From Chlorobiota bacterium (lineage in GTDB: Bacteria; Bacteroidota; Chlorobiia; Chlorobiales; Chlorobiaceae), in contig VGGK01000010.1 of the NCBI GenBank assembly GCA_016868665.1, positions 1 through 64,000 on the forward strand: a stretch of 64,000 bases of DNA, written 5' to 3'. Every line of letters starts with the position of its first letter. The stretch's first letter is position 1. The position numbers and the translations under genes are program-made. Below the pieces are notes generated by a model. The model worked only from the letters and a program-made list of their open reading frames with translations. It was not told where the DNA came from and made no database searches. Of this stretch, positions 44,919-55,720 are shown piece after piece.

Positions 44919-45277
44919 CTGCGGAAAACCGGATGATTATTAAAAAGAGCGATTCGGTTTAATATCCTTGCAGTAAAGAAGCTGCAAGGCATTGATGAAG
45001 ATCGGACTTCATCAATGCTTTCGGTTTGAGGTTGCCGGTATCATATTCAGCTTGGTTATTTTGATTGTGGATGCCGTTGCTCGTCGATTGCCCGGAAAGC
45101 TCATGTTTTTTATCCTTTTTGTTTACATTTATATGAATAATGTAAACGTTCCTGTCTTTCCCCTGCTCTCCTTTCGTACGCGGTTTTTGGTTTTTAATGG
45201 CGGCAGCGCCATTCTGTTCTGTGGATAAGTAACGCAATGCTGAATTGCCGTTCGTTCCAGTTAAAAGGGTAAAAAGC
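44919..45277. other. Gene-free region upstream of the first CqsS-like kinase
   Basis: This 359-bp gap begins with the two adjacent hairpins at 44966-45018, continues with AT-rich sequence and ends in an AAAAGGGT ribosome site (about 45263-45270) before the ATG at 45278. Short frames on both strands overlap each other and are not called. Confidence 0.5.
44966..45018 (+). terminator. Tandem hairpins (terminator or leader structure)
   Basis: Two perfect stems nearly abut: CCTTGCAG / CTGCAAGG (44966-44973 with 44982-44989) and GCATTGATGAAG / CTTCATCAATGC (44989-45000 with 45007-45018), followed by TTTCGGTTT. The second, 12 bp with a 6-nt loop and T-run, is a good Rho-independent terminator for the SRPBCC gene. 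The first shares one base with it, so the two can compete weakly. Confidence 0.65.
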
Positions 45278-47395
45278 ATGTTTCTTTCAGGATATATAAG
45301 GAAGTGCTTGGATGAGGGCACCCGGATATCGCGGTTCAACGTAACCTGGGGCGTGCTGCTTGCCGCGCCGGGACACCTTTTTTTTTATTTTCTTTTGAAA
45401 TACGGCTTTCTCATGCCGTATGAGAGTTTTGCTTTACGTTTTGCCGGATCATTACTCGCTCTCTTTGCCCTGCTGCTTGTGAGGCTTGATTCCCCTACGG
45501 CAAAGAGGATTTTTCCGTATTATTGGCATTTTACCCTGATTTTTGTTTTACCTTTTATTTTTACGTTTTACCTCCTGAAGAACGATTTTCATGAGCTCTG
45601 GCTATACTGGGAAATTTTCATGGTATTCGTTCTGATTGCCTTTGTGCCGAACTGGCTGATGCTGCTCTTCGACCTTGTTATTGGCGTATTGGCGGCTGTA
45701 GCGGTTTTTATGCTGACATCTCCAGGAGCTTCGCTGAATCCGGACTTCGATATTGCAGCCTACGCAACAGTGCTTTCGTTCTGCCTTGTGGCAGGTTATC
45801 TTTTCAGTTACAGCAACAGAAAGGGGCAGGTTGCGCTCGAAAAAAACGCGGCTCTTCAGGCGCTTGCCGGCAGTATTGCGCATGAAATGCGTAATCCTCT
45901 CAGCCAGGTGCGACTGAATCTCGATATTATTGAACATCAGCTTCCCTCCTGCGGGCGAGAGGATAATGGAAAGTCCGCAGATCTGCAGGAAAATATCATA
46001 AAGGTGCTCGACAGCCTATATCAGCACGTGGCATGGTGCCAGATTGCAGTCAGGCGAGGATCGCAGATCATTACCATGATTCTCGACGAAGTCAGCGAAA
46101 AACCCATCAGTAAAAACAGTTTTATCCATGCGAGTGCAGGGCTGACAACCCGTAAGGCGATTGAGGAGTATGGTTTCGAATCTTCCTCTGATCGAAAGAA
46201 GATAATGTTTGACAGCAGTCGGGATTTCATGTTCCGTGTCAACGAAACCATGTATATGTTTGTGCTATTCAATCTTCTGAAGAATGCGCTTTATGTTCTG
46301 GAGTCGCGTCCGGAAGCGAAAATCCACATAACGATTGAACCGGGAGAGACCTTGAACAGGGTGAAAGTCAGGGATACTGGTCCGGGGATTCCGGAAGTGC
46401 ATCTGAAGCGATTATTCGATCCCTACTATACATCTGGCAAAAAGGGGGGGACAGGGTTGGGGCTTTCATACTGCAAACGGGTAATGCAGGCTTTCAGCGG
46501 CGATATTACCTGTAATTCCCTGGAAGGCGCCTATACAGAGTTCGTGCTCGAATTTCCAGTGGTTTCCCGGGATCAGCTTCAGGCAAGCCTCGAAGGTCTG
46601 ATCAGTGAAAATCGCGAACTTTTAGGAGCCAAGCGTATTCTTGTAGTTGACGACAGGGAGCAGGACAGGAAAGATGTGCGCCGGGTGCTTGGAGAAGTTG
46701 TTGCTTTTCTGGACGAGGCTGCCGACGGCAGGGAGGCAATCGCGAAGCTGCGGAACGCCTCCTGCGATCTTGTGATAATGAATCTTTCAATGCCTGTGCT
46801 CGACGGATATGAGGCTACGGAGCTGATCAGGCAGGGAGAGGCCGGCGAATCAGCATCCACCGTTCCCGTTCTGGGCTATACCGAGCAGCCTTATGCTGTC
46901 GTTCATGCAAGGACTATCAAGGCAGGAATGCAGGGATTGCTTGCCAAACCATGTTCGGATGAGGAGCTGATTATCGGTCTTGCGGAAGTTTTCCGGGAAC
47001 TCAAAGGCATCAAGCTTCAGCGTCTGCAGGGTACGAGAGTACTGATTGTGGATGATTCGTCGGTCAACAGGATCGGGCTTGCCATGATGCTCGAAAAGTA
47101 CGGAATGCAGACAGAGGCGGCAAGAAACGGAAAGGATGCGCTCGAAAAGATTGAATCAGTCAGGTTTGACCTTGTGCTCATGGATATCGGGATGCCTATT
47201 GTCGATGGTATCGAGGCTACAAGGCGGATACGCAAATCTCCAAAAGAAGATACTGCCGTGCTTCCGGTGATCGGTATCAGCGGCGAATCGGATGAGCAAC
47301 TCGTTCGCGAAGCTCTATCTTCAGGGATGAATGATTATGTCGTGAAGCCGGTCGATATCCGCGTACTTGCCGAAAAGATAAGCAATCTGCTCTGA
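45278..47395 (+). CDS. CqsS-like autoinducer-receptor hybrid histidine kinase 1
   Basis: The 705-residue protein has six membrane helices (about 20-175) that resemble the CqsS/LqsS/PhcS sensor domain: MPYESFALRFAGSL and LLKNDFHELWL match the Vibrio CqsS segments around FPQSYE and MMLMNDW. HisKA follows with His202 in GSIAHEMRNPL, HATPase with FNLLKNAL, DTGPGI and GTGLGLSYCKR, then two receiver domains. Receiver 1 has Asn502 in place of the phospho-Asp (LVIMNLSMP), so it should not be phosphorylated; receiver 2 keeps Asp636 (LMDIGMP). It is followed after 56 bp by a secreted protein gene. Inner membrane. Confidence 0.88.
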   Translation: MFLSGYIRKCLDEGTRISRFNVTWGVLLAAPGHLFFYFLLKYGFLMPYESFALRFAGSLLALFALLLVRLDSPTAKRIFPYYWHFTLIFVLPFIFTFYLLKNDFHELWLYWEIFMVFVLIAFVPNWLMLLFDLVIGVLAAVAVFMLTSPGASLNPDFDIAAYATVLSFCLVAGYLFSYSNRKGQVALEKNAALQALAGSIAHEMRNPLSQVRLNLDIIEHQLPSCGREDNGKSADLQENIIKVLDSLYQHVAWCQIAVRRGSQIITMILDEVSEKPISKNSFIHASAGLTTRKAIEEYGFESSSDRKKIMFDSSRDFMFRVNETMYMFVLFNLLKNALYVLESRPEAKIHITIEPGETLNRVKVRDTGPGIPEVHLKRLFDPYYTSGKKGGTGLGLSYCKRVMQAFSGDITCNSLEGAYTEFVLEFPVVSRDQLQASLEGLISENRELLGAKRILVVDDREQDRKDVRRVLGEVVAFLDEAADGREAIAKLRNASCDLVIMNLSMPVLDGYEATELIRQGEAGESASTVPVLGYTEQPYAVVHARTIKAGMQGLLAKPCSDEELIIGLAEVFRELKGIKLQRLQGTRVLIVDDSSVNRIGLAMMLEKYGMQTEAARNGKDALEKIESVRFDLVLMDIGMPIVDGIEATRRIRKSPKEDTAVLPVIGISGESDEQLVREALSSGMNDYVVKPVDIRVLAEKISNLL

Positions 47396-47964: not shown

Positions 47965-50900
47965 ATGTTTTCGTCAAGCGGCGCTATGCTTTCAGACAGG
48001 TCGGCAGCTGAGCATTTCCGGTTACCAGGCGGGGATCAGTCACTTTCATGCCGGAGCTCAGAAATTCGCCTGTCAACATCGATCGATATGAAGAATCTAT
48101 CCTTCGTCCGTCAGAATCCTGAATTATCCGGTTCGACGGCTTCCGATACAATCAATTCTGACTCGCAAGATCATTCCGTTTCGGCACAGATGAATATCTA
48201 CAAGACGATTTTTGAGCATATCAGGGATGGTGTGTTTATCCATACTATCTGCGAAAGCGGCAGAATCGGACGATTTGAGCTGGTTAACCCGGCGGCATGC
48301 CGGATGACCGGGTATACCGAGGAGGAGTTGCTCGATATGGGTCCGGAGGATCTTCATCTTCAGGAGGATATTCAGGTCATCAGGGCGTATTGCCTGGATG
48401 GGCTCAAAAAAAACAGGACATGCATGTTCGATGCGATCCTGCTGCATAAAGACGGTTCACGGATTGACACGGAGATCAGTGTTACGACAGTTGCCAACGC
48501 TGAAAGCGAGTGCGTTATTACCACGGTACACGACGTTACCCTTCGCAACAGGGCGTATCGCGATCTTGCCGAAAGCAAGAGCAGATTACAGCTTATCATG
48601 GATGCCGCTCATGCGGGTATCTGGGAGTGGAATACAAAGAATAACAGCAATATCTGGACGGATGAACTGTATCGTCTCTATGGACTCGATAAGGATGGCA
48701 CTGAGGCTTCTTACGAAGCCTGGCTGAAATCCATCCTGCCCGAAGAAAGGGAGCAAACCGAAAGAGTCGTGATCGAAGCGGCAAGGAAAGCTGAAGAATT
48801 TACTGTCGAGTGGCGGGTCAGGCAGGCTGAGGGCACTGAACGATGGCTTATGTCGAAAGGCACTCCTTTCAAAGACGAAGAAGGCGAGGCAAGCCGATAT
48901 GTGGGAATCGTGATTGACATTACAACGCTCAAGCTCGCACAGAAGGCCGAAATGAAAGAGCAGTCCTTGCGCAAAGCCGTTATTGAGAGTATTCCCGGAA
49001 CGTTTTACATGATCGATGTCAATGGACGATACTCCGCATGGAATGCGTATCAGCGAGATGTAATTATCGGCAAACCGGAATACGAGATGCATGAAGCCGA
49101 AGCGATTCATAGCATTCATCCGGAAGATCGAGTGCTGATTCAGAAAAAAATCACCAATGTACTTGAAGAAGGAACTGTCGAAATTGCGGTCGGGAGGGTG
49201 CTGCTTTGCGGAGGACCTGCATTCCGCTGGTTTCTGATGACCGGTCGGCGTATTTTTTTTGACGGTCAGCCTTATCTGATAGGTATCGGCATAGATATTA
49301 CCGATCGTAAACGGATCGAGGACATGCAGAGCTTTCTTGCCCGTATTACTTCGCTGCCTGCGTCCGAGTCTTTTTTCAGCGCTCTGGCTCAATACCTCGC
49401 GGATTGCCTCGGTATGGATGTTGTGCATATCGGGCGATTCAAACGCGACGGCTCAGCCATGACGACGCTTGGTATATGGAGTATCGGATATGATACGGAA
49501 GAAATATCTGATGCGGCGTGGAACGGCCTTCCTGCTGCGGATCTGCATGAAACAGGAATATGCATCCATCTCTCAGGCGTTCGCGATCTGTTTCCTCAGG
49601 ATCGGCTTTTGCAGGATCTTCGGGCAGAAAGCTATATGGCCACAACGCTTTTTGACCATAACGGCCAACCGATTGGCATCATCAGGGTTGTCGGAAGCGG
49701 TTCGCTTGAAAACGGTAATATAGCCGAAACGATCATAAAACTCGTAGCCATGCGCCTGTCGGGGGAAATTGTGCGACTTGAGGCAGAACATGCTCTGCAG
49801 AAAAGCGAAAAAAAATATCGGGAGCTGTATGAAACCGTACCGATTGGCTTGTATCAGAGCGATCTGGGAGGGCATATCATTGCGGCTAACGAATCCTGTT
49901 TTCAGTTAGCCCATGCCGCCAAAGAGGATCGCGACTGGTGGTTAACGCAGGATACGCGTGCAAGTTATGTTGATCCCGAGGATGCACGGCGGCTCAGGGA
50001 ATTGCTTTTGAGAGACGGATACGTCAGCGGTTTCGAGTCGAGATTCAAGCGCTGTGACGGCACCATAGCCTGGCTGAGCAATACGGCAACACTTGTATAT
50101 AACGAAAAAGGCGAGGCGGATTTCATCAGCGGATCGTTTATCGATATTACAGAGCGAAAATTGGCTGAGGAGGCAAAAGAAAAGCTTGAACTGCAGCTTC
50201 AGCAATCGCAGAAAATGGAGCTTGTCGGTCGGCTTGCCGGAGGCATAGCTCATGATTTCAACAATATGCTTGGCGTTATTCTGGGCAATGCCGAGCTGGC
50301 TCTTGCATCAGAAAACCTTGATCCAGCCAATACAGAACATATCGAGGAGGTTGTCAATGCGGCCAACCGTTCTGCTAATCTGACCGGACAGCTGCTTGCT
50401 TTCGCACGAAAACAGACTGTTACTCCGAAAATCGTCGAGTTGAACAACCTTGTGGAAGGGATGCTGAATATGCTGGAAAGATTGATCGGAGAGGATATAA
50501 AACTTTGCTGGCAGCCTTGTCTCTCTCAACTGTTTGTGAATATCGATCCTTCGCAAATCGATCAGATTCTTGTAAACCTTTGCGTTAATGCCCGGGATGC
50601 TATAGTCGATGTGGGTACGGTTACCATTGAAACAGGCGCAACGGGCATTGACGAAACTGATGCCGGTGCATTTTCGCTGGTGACGCCCGGCGAATATGTT
50701 ATGCTTGCAGTAACCGATACCGGTTGCGGGATTGAGAAGCAGCATTTCGACCATATTTTCGAGCCTTTTTTTACGACCAAGGAGATCGGAAAAGGCACTG
50801 GACTCGGTCTTTCGACTGTTTACGGCATCGTGAAGCAGAATAACGGTTTTATCAATCTTGAAAGCCAACCCGGAAATGGGGCATCATTCAGGATTTATCT

Positions 50901-51333
50901 GCCCCGTATCGAAAAAACACTGCATCATCCAGCCGAAGAACAACCGGTTTCACCTGTTGTTCAGGGAAAAGAGACCATACTGCTTGTCGAAGACGAACCG
51001 GAAATACTGAAGCTGTGCAGGATGGTGCTCGAAATAATCGGCTACTCGGTACTTACGGCGAATACGCCGGACAAAGCCCTCCAGATAGCAGAAGAACATG
51101 GACGGGCAATTCACCTGCTGCTTACTGATGTGATTATGCCGGAAATGAACGGACGCGATCTCGCCTTCAGACTGCAATCGATTCAGCCGGATATGAAGGT
51201 CGTCTATATGTCGGGGTATACAGCCGATAATATCGCAAGCCATGGAGTGATCAATACCGATGTCCAGTTTATCCAGAAGCCTTTCAGTATCAATGCTCTG
51301 AAGCAGAAAATCCGTGATGTTCTCGAGCAATGA
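47965..51333 (+). CDS. Multi-PAS/GAF hybrid histidine kinase
   Basis: The 1122-residue protein (possible internal start at 48088) has no membrane helix. Domains in order: PAS 1 (about 75-200), PAS 2 (205-330), PAS 3 (335-450), GAF-like (455-620), PAS 4 (635-755), HisKA with His in GGIAHDFNNMLG (about 760), HATPase (NLCVNARDA, VTDTGCGI, GTGLGLSTVYG) and a C-terminal receiver with LLLTDVIMPEMNG (about 1053) and QKPFS. The DFNN-type H-box is of the class in which the receiver sits behind the kinase. It senses unknown cytosolic signals and may pass phosphate to or from the flanking CqsS-like kinases, which is inference. Confidence 0.9.
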   Translation: MFSSSGAMLSDRSAAEHFRLPGGDQSLSCRSSEIRLSTSIDMKNLSFVRQNPELSGSTASDTINSDSQDHSVSAQMNIYKTIFEHIRDGVFIHTICESGRIGRFELVNPAACRMTGYTEEELLDMGPEDLHLQEDIQVIRAYCLDGLKKNRTCMFDAILLHKDGSRIDTEISVTTVANAESECVITTVHDVTLRNRAYRDLAESKSRLQLIMDAAHAGIWEWNTKNNSNIWTDELYRLYGLDKDGTEASYEAWLKSILPEEREQTERVVIEAARKAEEFTVEWRVRQAEGTERWLMSKGTPFKDEEGEASRYVGIVIDITTLKLAQKAEMKEQSLRKAVIESIPGTFYMIDVNGRYSAWNAYQRDVIIGKPEYEMHEAEAIHSIHPEDRVLIQKKITNVLEEGTVEIAVGRVLLCGGPAFRWFLMTGRRIFFDGQPYLIGIGIDITDRKRIEDMQSFLARITSLPASESFFSALAQYLADCLGMDVVHIGRFKRDGSAMTTLGIWSIGYDTEEISDAAWNGLPAADLHETGICIHLSGVRDLFPQDRLLQDLRAESYMATTLFDHNGQPIGIIRVVGSGSLENGNIAETIIKLVAMRLSGEIVRLEAEHALQKSEKKYRELYETVPIGLYQSDLGGHIIAANESCFQLAHAAKEDRDWWLTQDTRASYVDPEDARRLRELLLRDGYVSGFESRFKRCDGTIAWLSNTATLVYNEKGEADFISGSFIDITERKLAEEAKEKLELQLQQSQKMELVGRLAGGIAHDFNNMLGVILGNAELALASENLDPANTEHIEEVVNAANRSANLTGQLLAFARKQTVTPKIVELNNLVEGMLNMLERLIGEDIKLCWQPCLSQLFVNIDPSQIDQILVNLCVNARDAIVDVGTVTIETGATGIDETDAGAFSLVTPGEYVMLAVTDTGCGIEKQHFDHIFEPFFTTKEIGKGTGLGLSTVYGIVKQNNGFINLESQPGNGASFRIYLPRIEKTLHHPAEEQPVSPVVQGKETILLVEDEPEILKLCRMVLEIIGYSVLTANTPDKALQIAEEHGRAIHLLLTDVIMPEMNGRDLAFRLQSIQPDMKVVYMSGYTADNIASHGVINTDVQFIQKPFSINALKQKIRDVLEQ

Positions 51334-51816: not shown

Positions 51817-53226
51817 GTGACACAGAACCATATGCTTTCTAATTTCAATCATTCTTTCCTTTTGAATTCAATCGACGCATGGGAGGAGGATCGTCGGGAT
51901 CGTTTCGATCTCGAAGCTCTGACGAAGTCGTTCCACGAATCGGTACCGGCTCTTGGTTTCATCGACTGGAAGATTACGGATGTCGAGCGCGGTTATGCCG
52001 AAACGGAACTTCCGCTTATTCCTAATTCATCGAATCAGTACATTGCCCATCAGGGCCCTCTGATGCTGCTTGCCGCAGAATACACAGGAGGACTGGCTCT
52101 TACCACATTGTTTCATCGGGTGCCGATAATCGGTTTCTGGCCTTCTGTCGACGAGAACGCCGGTTATATGTGGGGAGCCAAGGCATCAATCAAGTGGCTC
52201 ACTCCAAGCTGCCATAATCTGACCTGCAGGGCGCGGATCGATAATGAGCGATGGGAAGGGCTTGCCAGACGATTTGCCAGCAGCAGCAAGATAGTTGTGA
52301 CTGTTCCCGTTCACATGTACAACGGCGAGAAACTTGTTGCTACGGCCGATTTTACCTACTGGACGCAGGATATCAGGGGGCTTAAACGAAATGCTTACGA
52401 TATTGACAGGATCGATCTGCTCTATGAGCACAAGACCAAAACAACGGCAAAACTGATTGTAGGATTGCGCGCGCTTGAACAGGAAAAGCCACGGGAAGAG
52501 AGGCGGTTTGACGATCCTTATGCCTTCATGCTGGCCGGAAAGCATGGCATTACCCTGGCCAGAAGGTTCAGCGTGGCTACTCCGCAGCTTCAGAATATGA
52601 TAGCTGCCCGTACGCGGCATATTGACGAGTGTGTACGGGCTTTTGCTTCGGGAAAAACGAAATTCAATGTGGTCAATATCGGTTCAGGTTACGACAGCCG
52701 GTTCTGGCGGCTTGATTTTCCTCATGCCGTCGTTTACGATCTCGACCTGCCGGTCATGCTGCATGAACGACAAAGCATTTTCAATTACGATAAAAACATA
52801 CCGGTACGCGCCGTTCCCATAGACCTTGAAAACCAGCCGATCGATCAGGCGCTGCGGGAGCGATCGGATTTCGACCCCGGGTTGCCGACGTTTTTTATCT
52901 GGGAGGGAGGCTCGATGTATTTCAGGGAAATGATTATTGACGGCATTCTCCGTTCGATAAAAAAGATCATGCAGGAGGATTCCTGCATCTGGCTTGATTA
53001 TGTGTCGCAGGATCTGATAGAAATCCGCACGGGTATACGCGAAGCTGAAGGATTCATTCACAATATACGGAAAATGGGCGAACCCTTCATTAACGGATAT
53101 AACGATATCGAAGATCTTGCCGACAGGTACGATTTTATCATAGAACAGGATGTCCGTTCCGGAGAGCTTCTTGATATCGAAGAGGATGTTTATAACCATT
53201 ACAGTTTCTGTGTTCTGAAAAGCTAA
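51817..53226 (+). CDS. Hot-dog thioesterase fused to LCMT-type carboxyl methyltransferase
   Basis: This 469-residue fusion starts with GTG at 51817 (ATG at 51832 possible). Residues about 35-185 form a hot-dog domain of the DUF4442/YiiD-C type: NQYIAHQGPLMLLAAEYTGGLALTTLF has the His78-x-Gly and acidic Glu88 expected of thioesterases, and SIKWLTPS and VVTVPVHMYNGEKLVATADF complete the fold. Residues about 228-469 are a leucine-carboxyl-methyltransferase-like (PPM1/LCMT, PF04072-type) domain: NIGSGYDSRFWRLDFP (SAM site), YDLDLP (311 region) and FIWEGGSMYFRE. The gene ends 1 bp before a CqsS-like receptor. Inferred: acyl-thioester hydrolysis plus methylation of the free carboxylate to a signal. 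Confidence 0.85.
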   Translation: MTQNHMLSNFNHSFLLNSIDAWEEDRRDRFDLEALTKSFHESVPALGFIDWKITDVERGYAETELPLIPNSSNQYIAHQGPLMLLAAEYTGGLALTTLFHRVPIIGFWPSVDENAGYMWGAKASIKWLTPSCHNLTCRARIDNERWEGLARRFASSSKIVVTVPVHMYNGEKLVATADFTYWTQDIRGLKRNAYDIDRIDLLYEHKTKTTAKLIVGLRALEQEKPREERRFDDPYAFMLAGKHGITLARRFSVATPQLQNMIAARTRHIDECVRAFASGKTKFNVVNIGSGYDSRFWRLDFPHAVVYDLDLPVMLHERQSIFNYDKNIPVRAVPIDLENQPIDQALRERSDFDPGLPTFFIWEGGSMYFREMIIDGILRSIKKIMQEDSCIWLDYVSQDLIEIRTGIREAEGFIHNIRKMGEPFINGYNDIEDLADRYDFIIEQDVRSGELLDIEEDVYNHYSFCVLKS

Positions 53227-53227
53227 T

Positions 53228-55720
53228 ATGTTCTTATCGATGACCCCCAGATACTCTTCCAGATCCTCTTTTCTGAAACGCCTGGAGGATTTTTTCCGGA
53301 AAGATTACGATCGTAATGAACTGACGATCAATTATATCAGGTACATAGGGCTATGGGGTCATCCGCTCTATTACCTGCTTTGTACGGTTGTTTTTCCTCA
53401 GCCTTACGAGTCTTTCGAGCTTCGTTTTGCAACGGCGGTTACCTTTGTGCCGATTCTGTTCCACAACCGTTATCCCGTCAGGTTCAGGCCGTTGATGATG
53501 ATATACTGGTATTTATGGCTGACCTTTACCTTTCCGGTTGTGTTTACCTACCTGATGCTGATGAATGATTTTTCCGGTCTGTGGCTGGTTGCCGAAACTG
53601 TCATGCTGTTCGTGTTCATCATCTTTATCACCAATTTCTTTCTTCTGGCATTTCTGTTGGTTTCCGGTATTGCCGTCGCTTATGCGGGATATGTTGTCAC
53701 TACCGGCACTCATCTGACGATCACGCAGCATATTATCGAATACTTCCTGTCGGTGCCGATTGCTATTCTTCTTGGTTTGCTGGTCAATTCCACCAATAAA
53801 AAAGGTGCGCTGGCAAACGAGCGGAATACGGTGCTGCAGTCTCTGGCAGGGAGCATCGCTCACGAAATGCGCAACCCACTCGGTCAGATTCGGCATTGCC
53901 TGTACAGTATCCAGAACCTTCTGCCCCAGGTAACGCCCGAAGAGTATAACAAACCGATCGGCAAAGAGAGGCTCGAAAGTCTTTACGAACGGGTGGTTCG
54001 TGGTCAGATGGCTGTAAAACGAGGCGCCCAGGTGATTGACATGGTTCTCAGCGAAGTTCGCGAGAAGCCTATAGGGCCGGAGAGTTTTACCTATCTGTCC
54101 GCTGCCAGGGTTACGCGCAACGCGCTCGATGAATTCGGCTATGAATCTGAACAGGACAGGAAGCGCGTTCATCTTGTCACGAAAGATCAGTTCGTTTTTC
54201 ATATCAACGAAACGCTTTTTGTTTTCGTGCTCTTCAACCTGCTGAAGAATGCCCTTTTCTATTTCAAAACCTGTCCCGACAGTCAGATCACAGTACGTCT
54301 TGAGACGGGTAAAACTCATAATTACATATATTTTCACGATTCGGGGCCGGGGATATCGAGCGAGGCTCTGCCGCATATTTTTGACAGCTTTTTCACCAAA
54401 GGCAAGACTGCAGGTACCGGTCTCGGGCTGGCTTACTGCAAGCGGATCATGACCGCTTTCGGCGGGGATATTGTCTGTAAATCGATAGAAGGCCAGTATA
54501 CCGAGTTCATGCTTTCTTTTCCGGTTATTTCCGAAAAGGAGATGAACATCTATACGGAGCGTGTCATATCCATGGGATTGGCCGATTTTAAGGGAAAATA
54601 TCTGCTGATCGTTGATGACGAAGCGCTTTATCGCATAGTCCTGAAAAAGTATCTTGCTCCTCTGGAGGTTGAGGTCGACGAGGCGGTCGATGGGCGGGAA
54701 GCATTGCATAAGCTCGCTGAAAGACGGTACGATCTTGTTATCATGGACCTGAACATGCCTTCCATGGGCGGTTATGAAGCGGTCGAAAGGCTGCGCCGCG
54801 GCGAAGCAGGTCAGGAAGCCTGTTCGGTACCTGTTGCGGCACACAGTTCAGAGTCCGTCATGACCGCACGAAGCAGATCGGAAAACGCGGGAATGCAGGC
54901 TTTTATCGCCAAGCCCTGCAGCCAGGCCGAACTTATCACTTCTCTGCGGTCCGTGATCAATGCCGTCCCTGAGGGAAAATATCCAGGTTCTCCGTTTTCC
55001 GGACGAAAAGTGCTGCTGGTGGACGATTCAGCTCTGAATCGCGACCTGCTCGCGATGTATCTCAGAGACAAGGGAATTGTCGTGACCGTTTCGGATAGCG
55101 GTGATCAGGCGCTGGAGATTCTCAGAAAGCAGGATTTCGAGTTGATGATAACCGATATTCATATGCCGGGAATGGATGGACTCGAACTGACCCGCAGGAT
55201 TCGATCGAGCCGGAACCACCGTTATGCCCGGATGCCTGTTATCGGGCTCAGCGGGGCGATTGAAGAGGAGGCTGCGGCGAGAAACGCGGGAATGAACGAC
55301 TTTCGCGTCAAAACGGACAGCCCCAGACTGCTTCTTGCCTCCATTGGCAGGCAACTGTCGGTTCCCGCAGAAAACCCTCTTCAGGAAAAAGCGGTGAAAG
55401 AGTATGCTCACTCAACAGCAGTTACTTCTGCATACGGTCTGTCGTTATCGGAGAGCGAAGATCTCTTGCGCATTTTTCATGAGGAGTTTAAGGATATGCC
55501 AGCAACTCTTCGCCGGGCTCTTGAGGAAGCTGATATCGAAAGTCTTAAACAACAGGCGCATAAACTTAAAGGGAGTGCCGCCATTCTTGGTATCGTATCG
55601 CTCAGCAAGGCAGCCGAAGAACTTGAAATGCATTGCCGTAACGGAAGAACCGAAGATCCTCGCTCCAAAGTAGAGCACATCGTCGAAGCTCTTGAGGCAT
55701 TGTTGGCGGAAAAGGTCTGA
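53228..55720 (+). CDS. CqsS-like autoinducer-receptor hybrid histidine kinase 2, with Hpt
   Basis: This 830-residue protein begins 1 bp after the thioesterase-methyltransferase gene. Six membrane helices (about 40-195) carry GHPLYYLLCTVVFPQPYESFELRFATAV and LMLMNDFSGLWLV, a very good match in layout and text to Vibrio CqsS. The kinase core has His212 (GSIAHEMRNPL), FNLLKNALF, DSGPGIS and GTGLGLAYCKR. Two receivers follow, both with Asp (507 in VIMDLNMP; 643 in MITDIHMPGMDG), then an Hpt domain with His778 (AHKLKGSA). The second receiver ends FRVKTDSP instead of the usual VxKP. The long form includes all phosphorelay modules. Inner membrane. Confidence 0.9.
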   Translation: MFLSMTPRYSSRSSFLKRLEDFFRKDYDRNELTINYIRYIGLWGHPLYYLLCTVVFPQPYESFELRFATAVTFVPILFHNRYPVRFRPLMMIYWYLWLTFTFPVVFTYLMLMNDFSGLWLVAETVMLFVFIIFITNFFLLAFLLVSGIAVAYAGYVVTTGTHLTITQHIIEYFLSVPIAILLGLLVNSTNKKGALANERNTVLQSLAGSIAHEMRNPLGQIRHCLYSIQNLLPQVTPEEYNKPIGKERLESLYERVVRGQMAVKRGAQVIDMVLSEVREKPIGPESFTYLSAARVTRNALDEFGYESEQDRKRVHLVTKDQFVFHINETLFVFVLFNLLKNALFYFKTCPDSQITVRLETGKTHNYIYFHDSGPGISSEALPHIFDSFFTKGKTAGTGLGLAYCKRIMTAFGGDIVCKSIEGQYTEFMLSFPVISEKEMNIYTERVISMGLADFKGKYLLIVDDEALYRIVLKKYLAPLEVEVDEAVDGREALHKLAERRYDLVIMDLNMPSMGGYEAVERLRRGEAGQEACSVPVAAHSSESVMTARSRSENAGMQAFIAKPCSQAELITSLRSVINAVPEGKYPGSPFSGRKVLLVDDSALNRDLLAMYLRDKGIVVTVSDSGDQALEILRKQDFELMITDIHMPGMDGLELTRRIRSSRNHRYARMPVIGLSGAIEEEAAARNAGMNDFRVKTDSPRLLLASIGRQLSVPAENPLQEKAVKEYAHSTAVTSAYGLSLSESEDLLRIFHEEFKDMPATLRRALEEADIESLKQQAHKLKGSAAILGIVSLSKAAEELEMHCRNGRTEDPRSKVEHIVEALEALLAEKV

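Follow-up and report, generated by a model that had tools for sequence, protein, structure and literature searches.

The known systems closest to the locus considered here include the CqsA/CqsS and LqsA/LqsS systems and the PhcB/PhcS system of Ralstonia. In CqsA/CqsS and LqsA/LqsS, as at this locus, the synthase gene adjoins the gene of a homologous receptor in which a membrane domain is joined to a kinase. The synthase of these systems is a PLP acyltransferase, whereas the gene beside the receptor described below encodes a hot-dog/methyltransferase fusion and the receptor carries Ala or Cys at the position equivalent to Ser107 of CqsS. Residues W104 and S107 of CqsS help to set the head-group preference in Vibrio and, in the available text of the same study, LqsS has the S and is without the W (PMC3376566). 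PhcB makes 3-OH PAME or 3-OH MAME according to the accessible part of PMC8578825, and its gene, coding for a SAM methyltransferase, lies beside a sensor-kinase gene as in the present case. For green sulfur bacteria, a comparative study of 2023 found, as far as its available portion goes, only the CAI-1 system (PMC10158934), and excerpts of another report list cqsA/cqsS homologues in Chlorobium (PMC5289986). No description of a hot-dog/LCM fusion was found by title or abstract in the literature on PhcB or on green sulfur butyrolactones, in a search that covered mostly non-subscription papers.

The window (the whole stretch of 64,000 nucleotides of a Chlorobiota bacterium contig that was analysed) carries a gene for such a fusion next to a receptor gene (Table 1), and this two-domain enzyme of some green sulfur bacteria probably makes a fatty-acid-derived chemical signal. 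The open reading frame 51817-53226 (+) is intact, with 0 internal stops. The Met conserved among the fusion homologues is M6 of this frame, so the gene likely starts at 51832; single residues of the fusion are numbered from this Met below. Scans for promoters and terminators at the locus gave matches at chance level only.

Table 1. Coordinates in the window of the fusion gene, its two domains and the CqsS-type kinases
Feature	Position	Strand	Remarks
Second CqsS-type hybrid kinase, without Hpt	45245..47395	+	41% identical to the receptor at 53228-55720
Fusion gene, hot-dog + LCM-type SAM methyltransferase	51832..53226	+	464 aa; frame readable from GTG 51817
Hot-dog domain (predicted)	51892..52371	+	about residues 21-180 (M6 numbering); fold match to 8ayv, 1t82, 1yoc and 1sh8, and conservation
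LCM/TIGR00027 carboxyl-methyltransferase domain	52441..53223	+	about residues 204-464 (M6 numbering); PF04072 and TIGR00027 above cut-off
CqsS/LqsS-type receptor, proposed cognate	53228..55720	+	membrane input domain-HisKA-HATPase-REC-REC-Hpt hybrid kinase

At the level of sequence, the assignment of the C-terminus of the fusion to the methyltransferases is firm. The PF04072 match covers residues 216-381 (E 5e-27, 95.4 bits against a cut-off of 22.3) and the TIGR00027 match residues 209-417 (114.2 bits against a cut-off of 93.55). Both GSGYDSRFWRL and EGGSMYF are present, and the SAM-motif residues R260, G284, G286, D288, D305, D331 and E358, part of them aligned to LCMT-1, are invariant in 16/16 rows. 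The nearest folds of the domain are LCMT-1 (3iei, Z 17.4, the top match) and ML2640 (2uyq, Z 17.3). Sequence family, SAM motifs and fold are therefore common to the fusion and to the LCM/TIGR00027 methyltransferases, to which the fusion adds the hot-dog domain and a place beside a CqsS-type receptor gene in a two-gene unit. Pfam and TIGR profiles detected no PLP aminotransferase-type domain, as in CqsA/LqsA, in the fusion. Enzymes of the LCM type typically methylate carboxyl groups, those of small molecules included. LCMT-1 methylates the C-terminal Leu carboxylate of a protein, and its place as top fold match would agree with a fusion that methylates a protein, for example the receptor itself. 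Such a role is highly improbable, as it leaves the hot-dog domain without an evident function. Methylation of the receptor in particular was judged unlikely because the C-termini of the fusion-linked receptors vary (one row, L034, is cut near a contig end).

The N-terminus is matched weakly in sequence, below the Pfam cut-offs for YiiD_C (20.5 bits against 27) and DUF4442 (18.8 against 25), and its predicted hot-dog fold is clear. In the full AlphaFold model, of modest mean pLDDT (68), the domain matches MadB 8ayv (Z 16.6 over 143 residues), 1t82 (15.9), 1yoc (15.8) and 1sh8 (15.0). Modelled alone, with a mean pLDDT of 60, it matches 1yoc (Z 14.1), 8ayv (13.9), 1t82 (13.3) and 1sh8 (13.2). The fusion has the hot-dog fold in common with MadB/YiiD_C decarboxylases and DUF4442 proteins (Z 13.2-16.6), and differs from them in being joined to a methyltransferase, in the acid at residue 83 and in missing the Pfam cut-offs. 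N68, Q69 and H73 are invariant in 16/16 aligned homologues.

These results bear on an earlier note, which had read the gene as a thioesterase fused to an LCMT-type methyltransferase. The fusion gene and the observation of two domains are confirmed, the hot-dog by predicted fold and the LCM domain above cut-offs, and the structure prediction that the note had proposed recovered both folds. The reading of the gene as a two-step acyl methyl ester synthase is borne out in part: the domain build, the retained SAM-binding residues and the coupling with the receptor support it, hydrolysis by the hot-dog and a methyl ester as product are matters of inference, and the nearest folds include MadB. The two motifs named for the LCM domain hold, as does H78 (H73 here). 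The claimed E88 (residue 83 here) stands as an acid in 16/16 rows but not as Glu, which occurs in 9 of the homologues, with Asp in the other 7.

The closest solved hot-dog folds are DUF4442/YiiD_C proteins, one of them a proven malonyl-ACP decarboxylase (MadB 8ayv), and 1t82, also among the best matches, is the MadB of Shewanella. Although long annotated as thioesterases, some PF09500 proteins are malonyl-ACP decarboxylases (Mad) that use Asn45, according to the accessible text of PMC8666670. In comparison with E. coli YiiD, Asn45 of Mad falls on the invariant N68 in a gapless hand alignment on a shared T-G, and on Y70 in an hhalign alignment with a probability of 0.55%. The fusion could accordingly make the signal of the adjoining receptor by another route. 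Its hot-dog would then decarboxylate as Mad does or serve to dock acyl-ACP, and the group methylated by the LCM domain would be a hydroxyl, an enol or, on a dicarboxylic acyl-ACP, the free carboxylate, so that the signal would be something other than a simple fatty-acid methyl ester. This is rather unlikely. Position 83 is acidic in 16/16 fusion rows where YiiD has Thr in the hand alignment; an acid there resembles the hydrolytic hot-dogs (hot-dog thioesterases), and a hydrolase is therefore favoured for the domain. The carboxyl methylation typical of LCM enzymes also argues against this alternative.

The full fusion is present in 8/37 genus genomes, in 9 copies. At E 0.001, 12/61 genomes match the fusion, the full fusion being found in only 8 and the others matching the LCM part. 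A scan of genome contigs returned 17 loci, 13 from Chlorobiaceae, Chlorobiota, Chlorobium or Pelodictyon, three from Ca. Thiosymbion (one degraded) and one from an alphaproteobacterial MAG. The window and 25 loci amount to 18 distinct places once 8 repeats of the same contigs are set aside; the fusion is intact in 16, in another the sequence runs out within its gene, and the last is degraded. In wider genome searches, the full-length fusion occurred only in genomes already known for it (2/146, 0/57, 1/398 and 1/150). No relative was found among viral contigs (0/21 pattern-matching stretches), and no plasmid record covered at least 80% of the fusion in searches that gave 14 and 102 records. The plasmid matches fall on the LCM part in 14/14 records of the first search and in nearly all of the best 60 of 102 in the second; among the matches listed, one weak match (E 0.06) starts inside the hot-dog part. 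At one Ca. Thiosymbion locus (L161), decayed pieces of a fusion and a receptor gene occur no more than 15 kb from the intact pair, and in the alphaproteobacterial MAG (L044, 3991-10007) two CqsS-type receptors occur, one on either side of the fusion.

The adjoining receptor has 31% identity over 417 aa, covering the membrane part and the kinase, with CqsS of Vibrio campbellii, which itself adjoins a CqsA scoring 696.7 bits against 428 (NF005526). Its best plasmid relative is that of Paraburkholderia caribensis, located just 3' of a KAS III-like gene. KAS III-like genes lie just upstream of CqsS-type kinases both on this P. caribensis plasmid (L055, 4900-8541) and in Ca. Thiosymbion (L162, 3805-6230). 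The distance between the fusion and receptor genes is 1 base from the first ATG of the receptor and 13 bases from M5, the start conserved among its homologues. The 1-bp gap that had been offered as evidence of coupling thus depends on the start chosen, but the coupling itself is strongly supported by adjacency, and the suggested search for the same fusion brings the intact distinct copies, that of the window included, to 16, in Chlorobiaceae, Ca. Thiosymbion and one alphaproteobacterial MAG. In 16/16 of these loci a CqsS-type receptor, cut by a contig end in three, lies directly downstream on the same strand, and it is kept despite differing flanking genes in most species and across three lineages. 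The pairing is far beyond chance. Distances among fusions and among receptors are correlated (r 0.90 for 14 loci; 0.78 for the 12 Chlorobiaceae loci), which is weak evidence since the trees of linked genes tend to agree anyway.

A phylogeny of 84 receptor rows was made by a quick method, with three long-branch joins flagged. It omits second copies of the same contigs, partial receptors (fewer than about 170 profile positions), the repeat of the Thiosymbion receptor and, through thinning, most rows of one further receptor family; rows labelled 'other' were not split further. The synthase labels change 12 times on this tree, against a mean of 46.6 for shuffled labels, and 0/200 shuffles were as low. 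The 10 AfsA-linked rows form one starred clade and 13/14 fusion-linked rows fall in another. The alphaproteobacterial fusion-linked receptor stands outside the fusion clade, beside the other receptor of its own locus, by a join flagged as long-branch.

At the S107-equivalent position, Ser is found in 17/17 CqsA-linked receptors, Trp in 10/10 AfsA-linked receptors and Ala or Cys in 14/14 fusion-linked receptors, counts that are less independent than they appear because descent is shared within clades. The TM4 Trp equivalent to W104 is kept in every neighbour-labelled row, including 14/14 fusion-linked ones, so that W104 and S107 of CqsS do not occur together in any of the fusion-linked receptors. 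Since LqsS lacks the W, this comparison says more about the ligand than about the receptor family. The S107 pattern is the strongest hint that the fusion product differs from CAI-1 in its head group.

Because the receptor adjoins the fusion in 16/16 loci, the receptors sort by neighbour and the S107-equivalent follows the synthase, it is very probable that the fusion synthesises the signal to which the adjoining receptor responds. That the two form a conserved, horizontally scattered synthase-receptor pair can be stated with considerable confidence. It is very unlikely that the fusion serves lipid or secondary metabolism and has a kinase for a neighbour by coincidence. LCM-only relatives do occur on many plasmids, and the two whose surroundings were inspected are without such a receptor, but the receptor is retained at intact fusion loci while other neighbours change, and both receptor subfamily and head-group residue track the neighbouring synthase.

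CqsS-type receptors are present in 25/61 genomes of the genus Chlorobium, many with more than one. Neighbours were counted at 40 further loci of the genus, a subset of the receptor matches, with Pfam run per cluster representative. A CqsA/LqsA homologue lies beside the receptor in 14/40 loci and an AfsA-domain gene with a flavoprotein gene directly upstream in 10/40; the remainder have the fusion (3/40), a class I methyltransferase of 288-296 aa (3/40), an O6-methylguanine-DNA methyltransferase (4/40) or none of these (6/40). The genome of the window itself has a CqsA (632 bits against 428) beside another CqsS-type receptor at G000:C7. The AfsA (PF03756)/flavin amine-oxidase-like/receptor operons of Chlorobium (L122, L126, L129, L131, L135, L139, L141, L145, L153 and L155) have overlapping or touching gene ends. 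AfsA is the maker of gamma-butyrolactone precursors in Streptomyces, and by analogy these operons may use a butyrolactone-type signal read by the CqsS-type kinase. The O6-methylguanine-DNA methyltransferase gene is directly upstream in one clade of Chlorobium receptors (L134, L138, L144 and L150) and the class I methyltransferase gene is downstream in another (L136, L146 and L151). Gammaproteobacterial CqsS/LqsS-like sensors (L173, L174, L175 and L179) lie beside a haem-oxygenase-like, radical SAM or YcaO gene, and these neighbours are possible further synthases.

The second CqsS-type kinase of the window is separated from the receptor of the fusion by a gene for a 1122-aa multi-PAS hybrid histidine kinase (47965-51333), and no synthase gene was identified beside it. 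Its three nearest rows in the tree (G001, G004 and G576) belong to genomes in which the fusion occurs as well (4/4 including the window). Fusion-type receptors occur in 11/61 genomes of the genus, and the crude p for 4/4 is 0.026, based on 25 receptor-bearing genomes with relatedness ignored. A role for this kinase as a second receptor of the fusion signal was considered and dropped, since it has Trp at the S107-equivalent position, like the AfsA-linked receptors. The Trp suggests that this kinase probably serves a different signal.

The best explanation of the locus is a two-gene quorum-sensing unit in which the fusion makes an acyl methyl ester for the adjoining receptor, a proposal about as apt to be right as wrong. 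The hot-dog would hydrolyse acyl-ACP or acyl-CoA to set free the carboxylate of the acyl chain, and the LCM domain would then methylate this carboxylate with SAM to give a methyl ester. The ester, neutral and lipophilic, would leave the cell. The CqsS-type kinase would bind it through its membrane input domain and relay phosphate along REC-REC-Hpt to a regulator as output. What is observed under this explanation comprises both domain folds, residues of catalytic type, the gene pairing, the receptor family and a synthase-specific receptor signature. The most economical product to assume is an acyl methyl ester, with about an even chance of being the signal.

Such a product recalls PhcB. Table 1 of PMC6989110, the part of that paper used here, gives the positions 2943477 for phcB codon 22 and 2945312 for phcS codon 161; if the two genes stand side by side with little space between them, PhcB has about 465-472 aa, close to the size of the fusion. 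The length of phcBSR is about 3.9 kb (PMC6580516). The PhcB substitution R22C falls outside the methyltransferase domain as annotated and yet lowers signal activity in supernatants, according to the same portion of PMC6989110. The fusion may then be an ortholog of a PhcB that is itself two-domain, a serious but somewhat doubtful possibility; in that case the locus would be a Phc-type module whose hosts are new but whose enzyme type is not. The published phcBSRQ operon continues with phcR and phcQ, whereas no phcR/phcQ-like response-regulator gene follows 3' of the receptor, where an ORF of 99 aa and a 714-aa gene on the minus strand come next. In addition, phc is restricted to Betaproteobacteria in the available text of PMC10653808. 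Orthology with PhcB concerns novelty and not mechanism, and is compatible with the acyl methyl ester explanation.

Tentatively, the CqsS-type receptor family may be a common platform for signals of unrelated chemistry. In green sulfur bacteria its partners would be CqsA, an AfsA-type hot-dog/flavoprotein operon or the hot-dog/LCM fusion, a single protein taking acyl-ACP to a methyl ester, and one TM4 residue would follow the head group of each signal. The fusion would bear on how PhcB makes methyl esters. Matched synthase/receptor pairs and a candidate specificity residue sorted by synthase type make the co-evolution of signal and receptor testable. Overall, the fusion locus suggests a second signalling system of different chemistry in the same green sulfur genomes, and possibly a third with AfsA.
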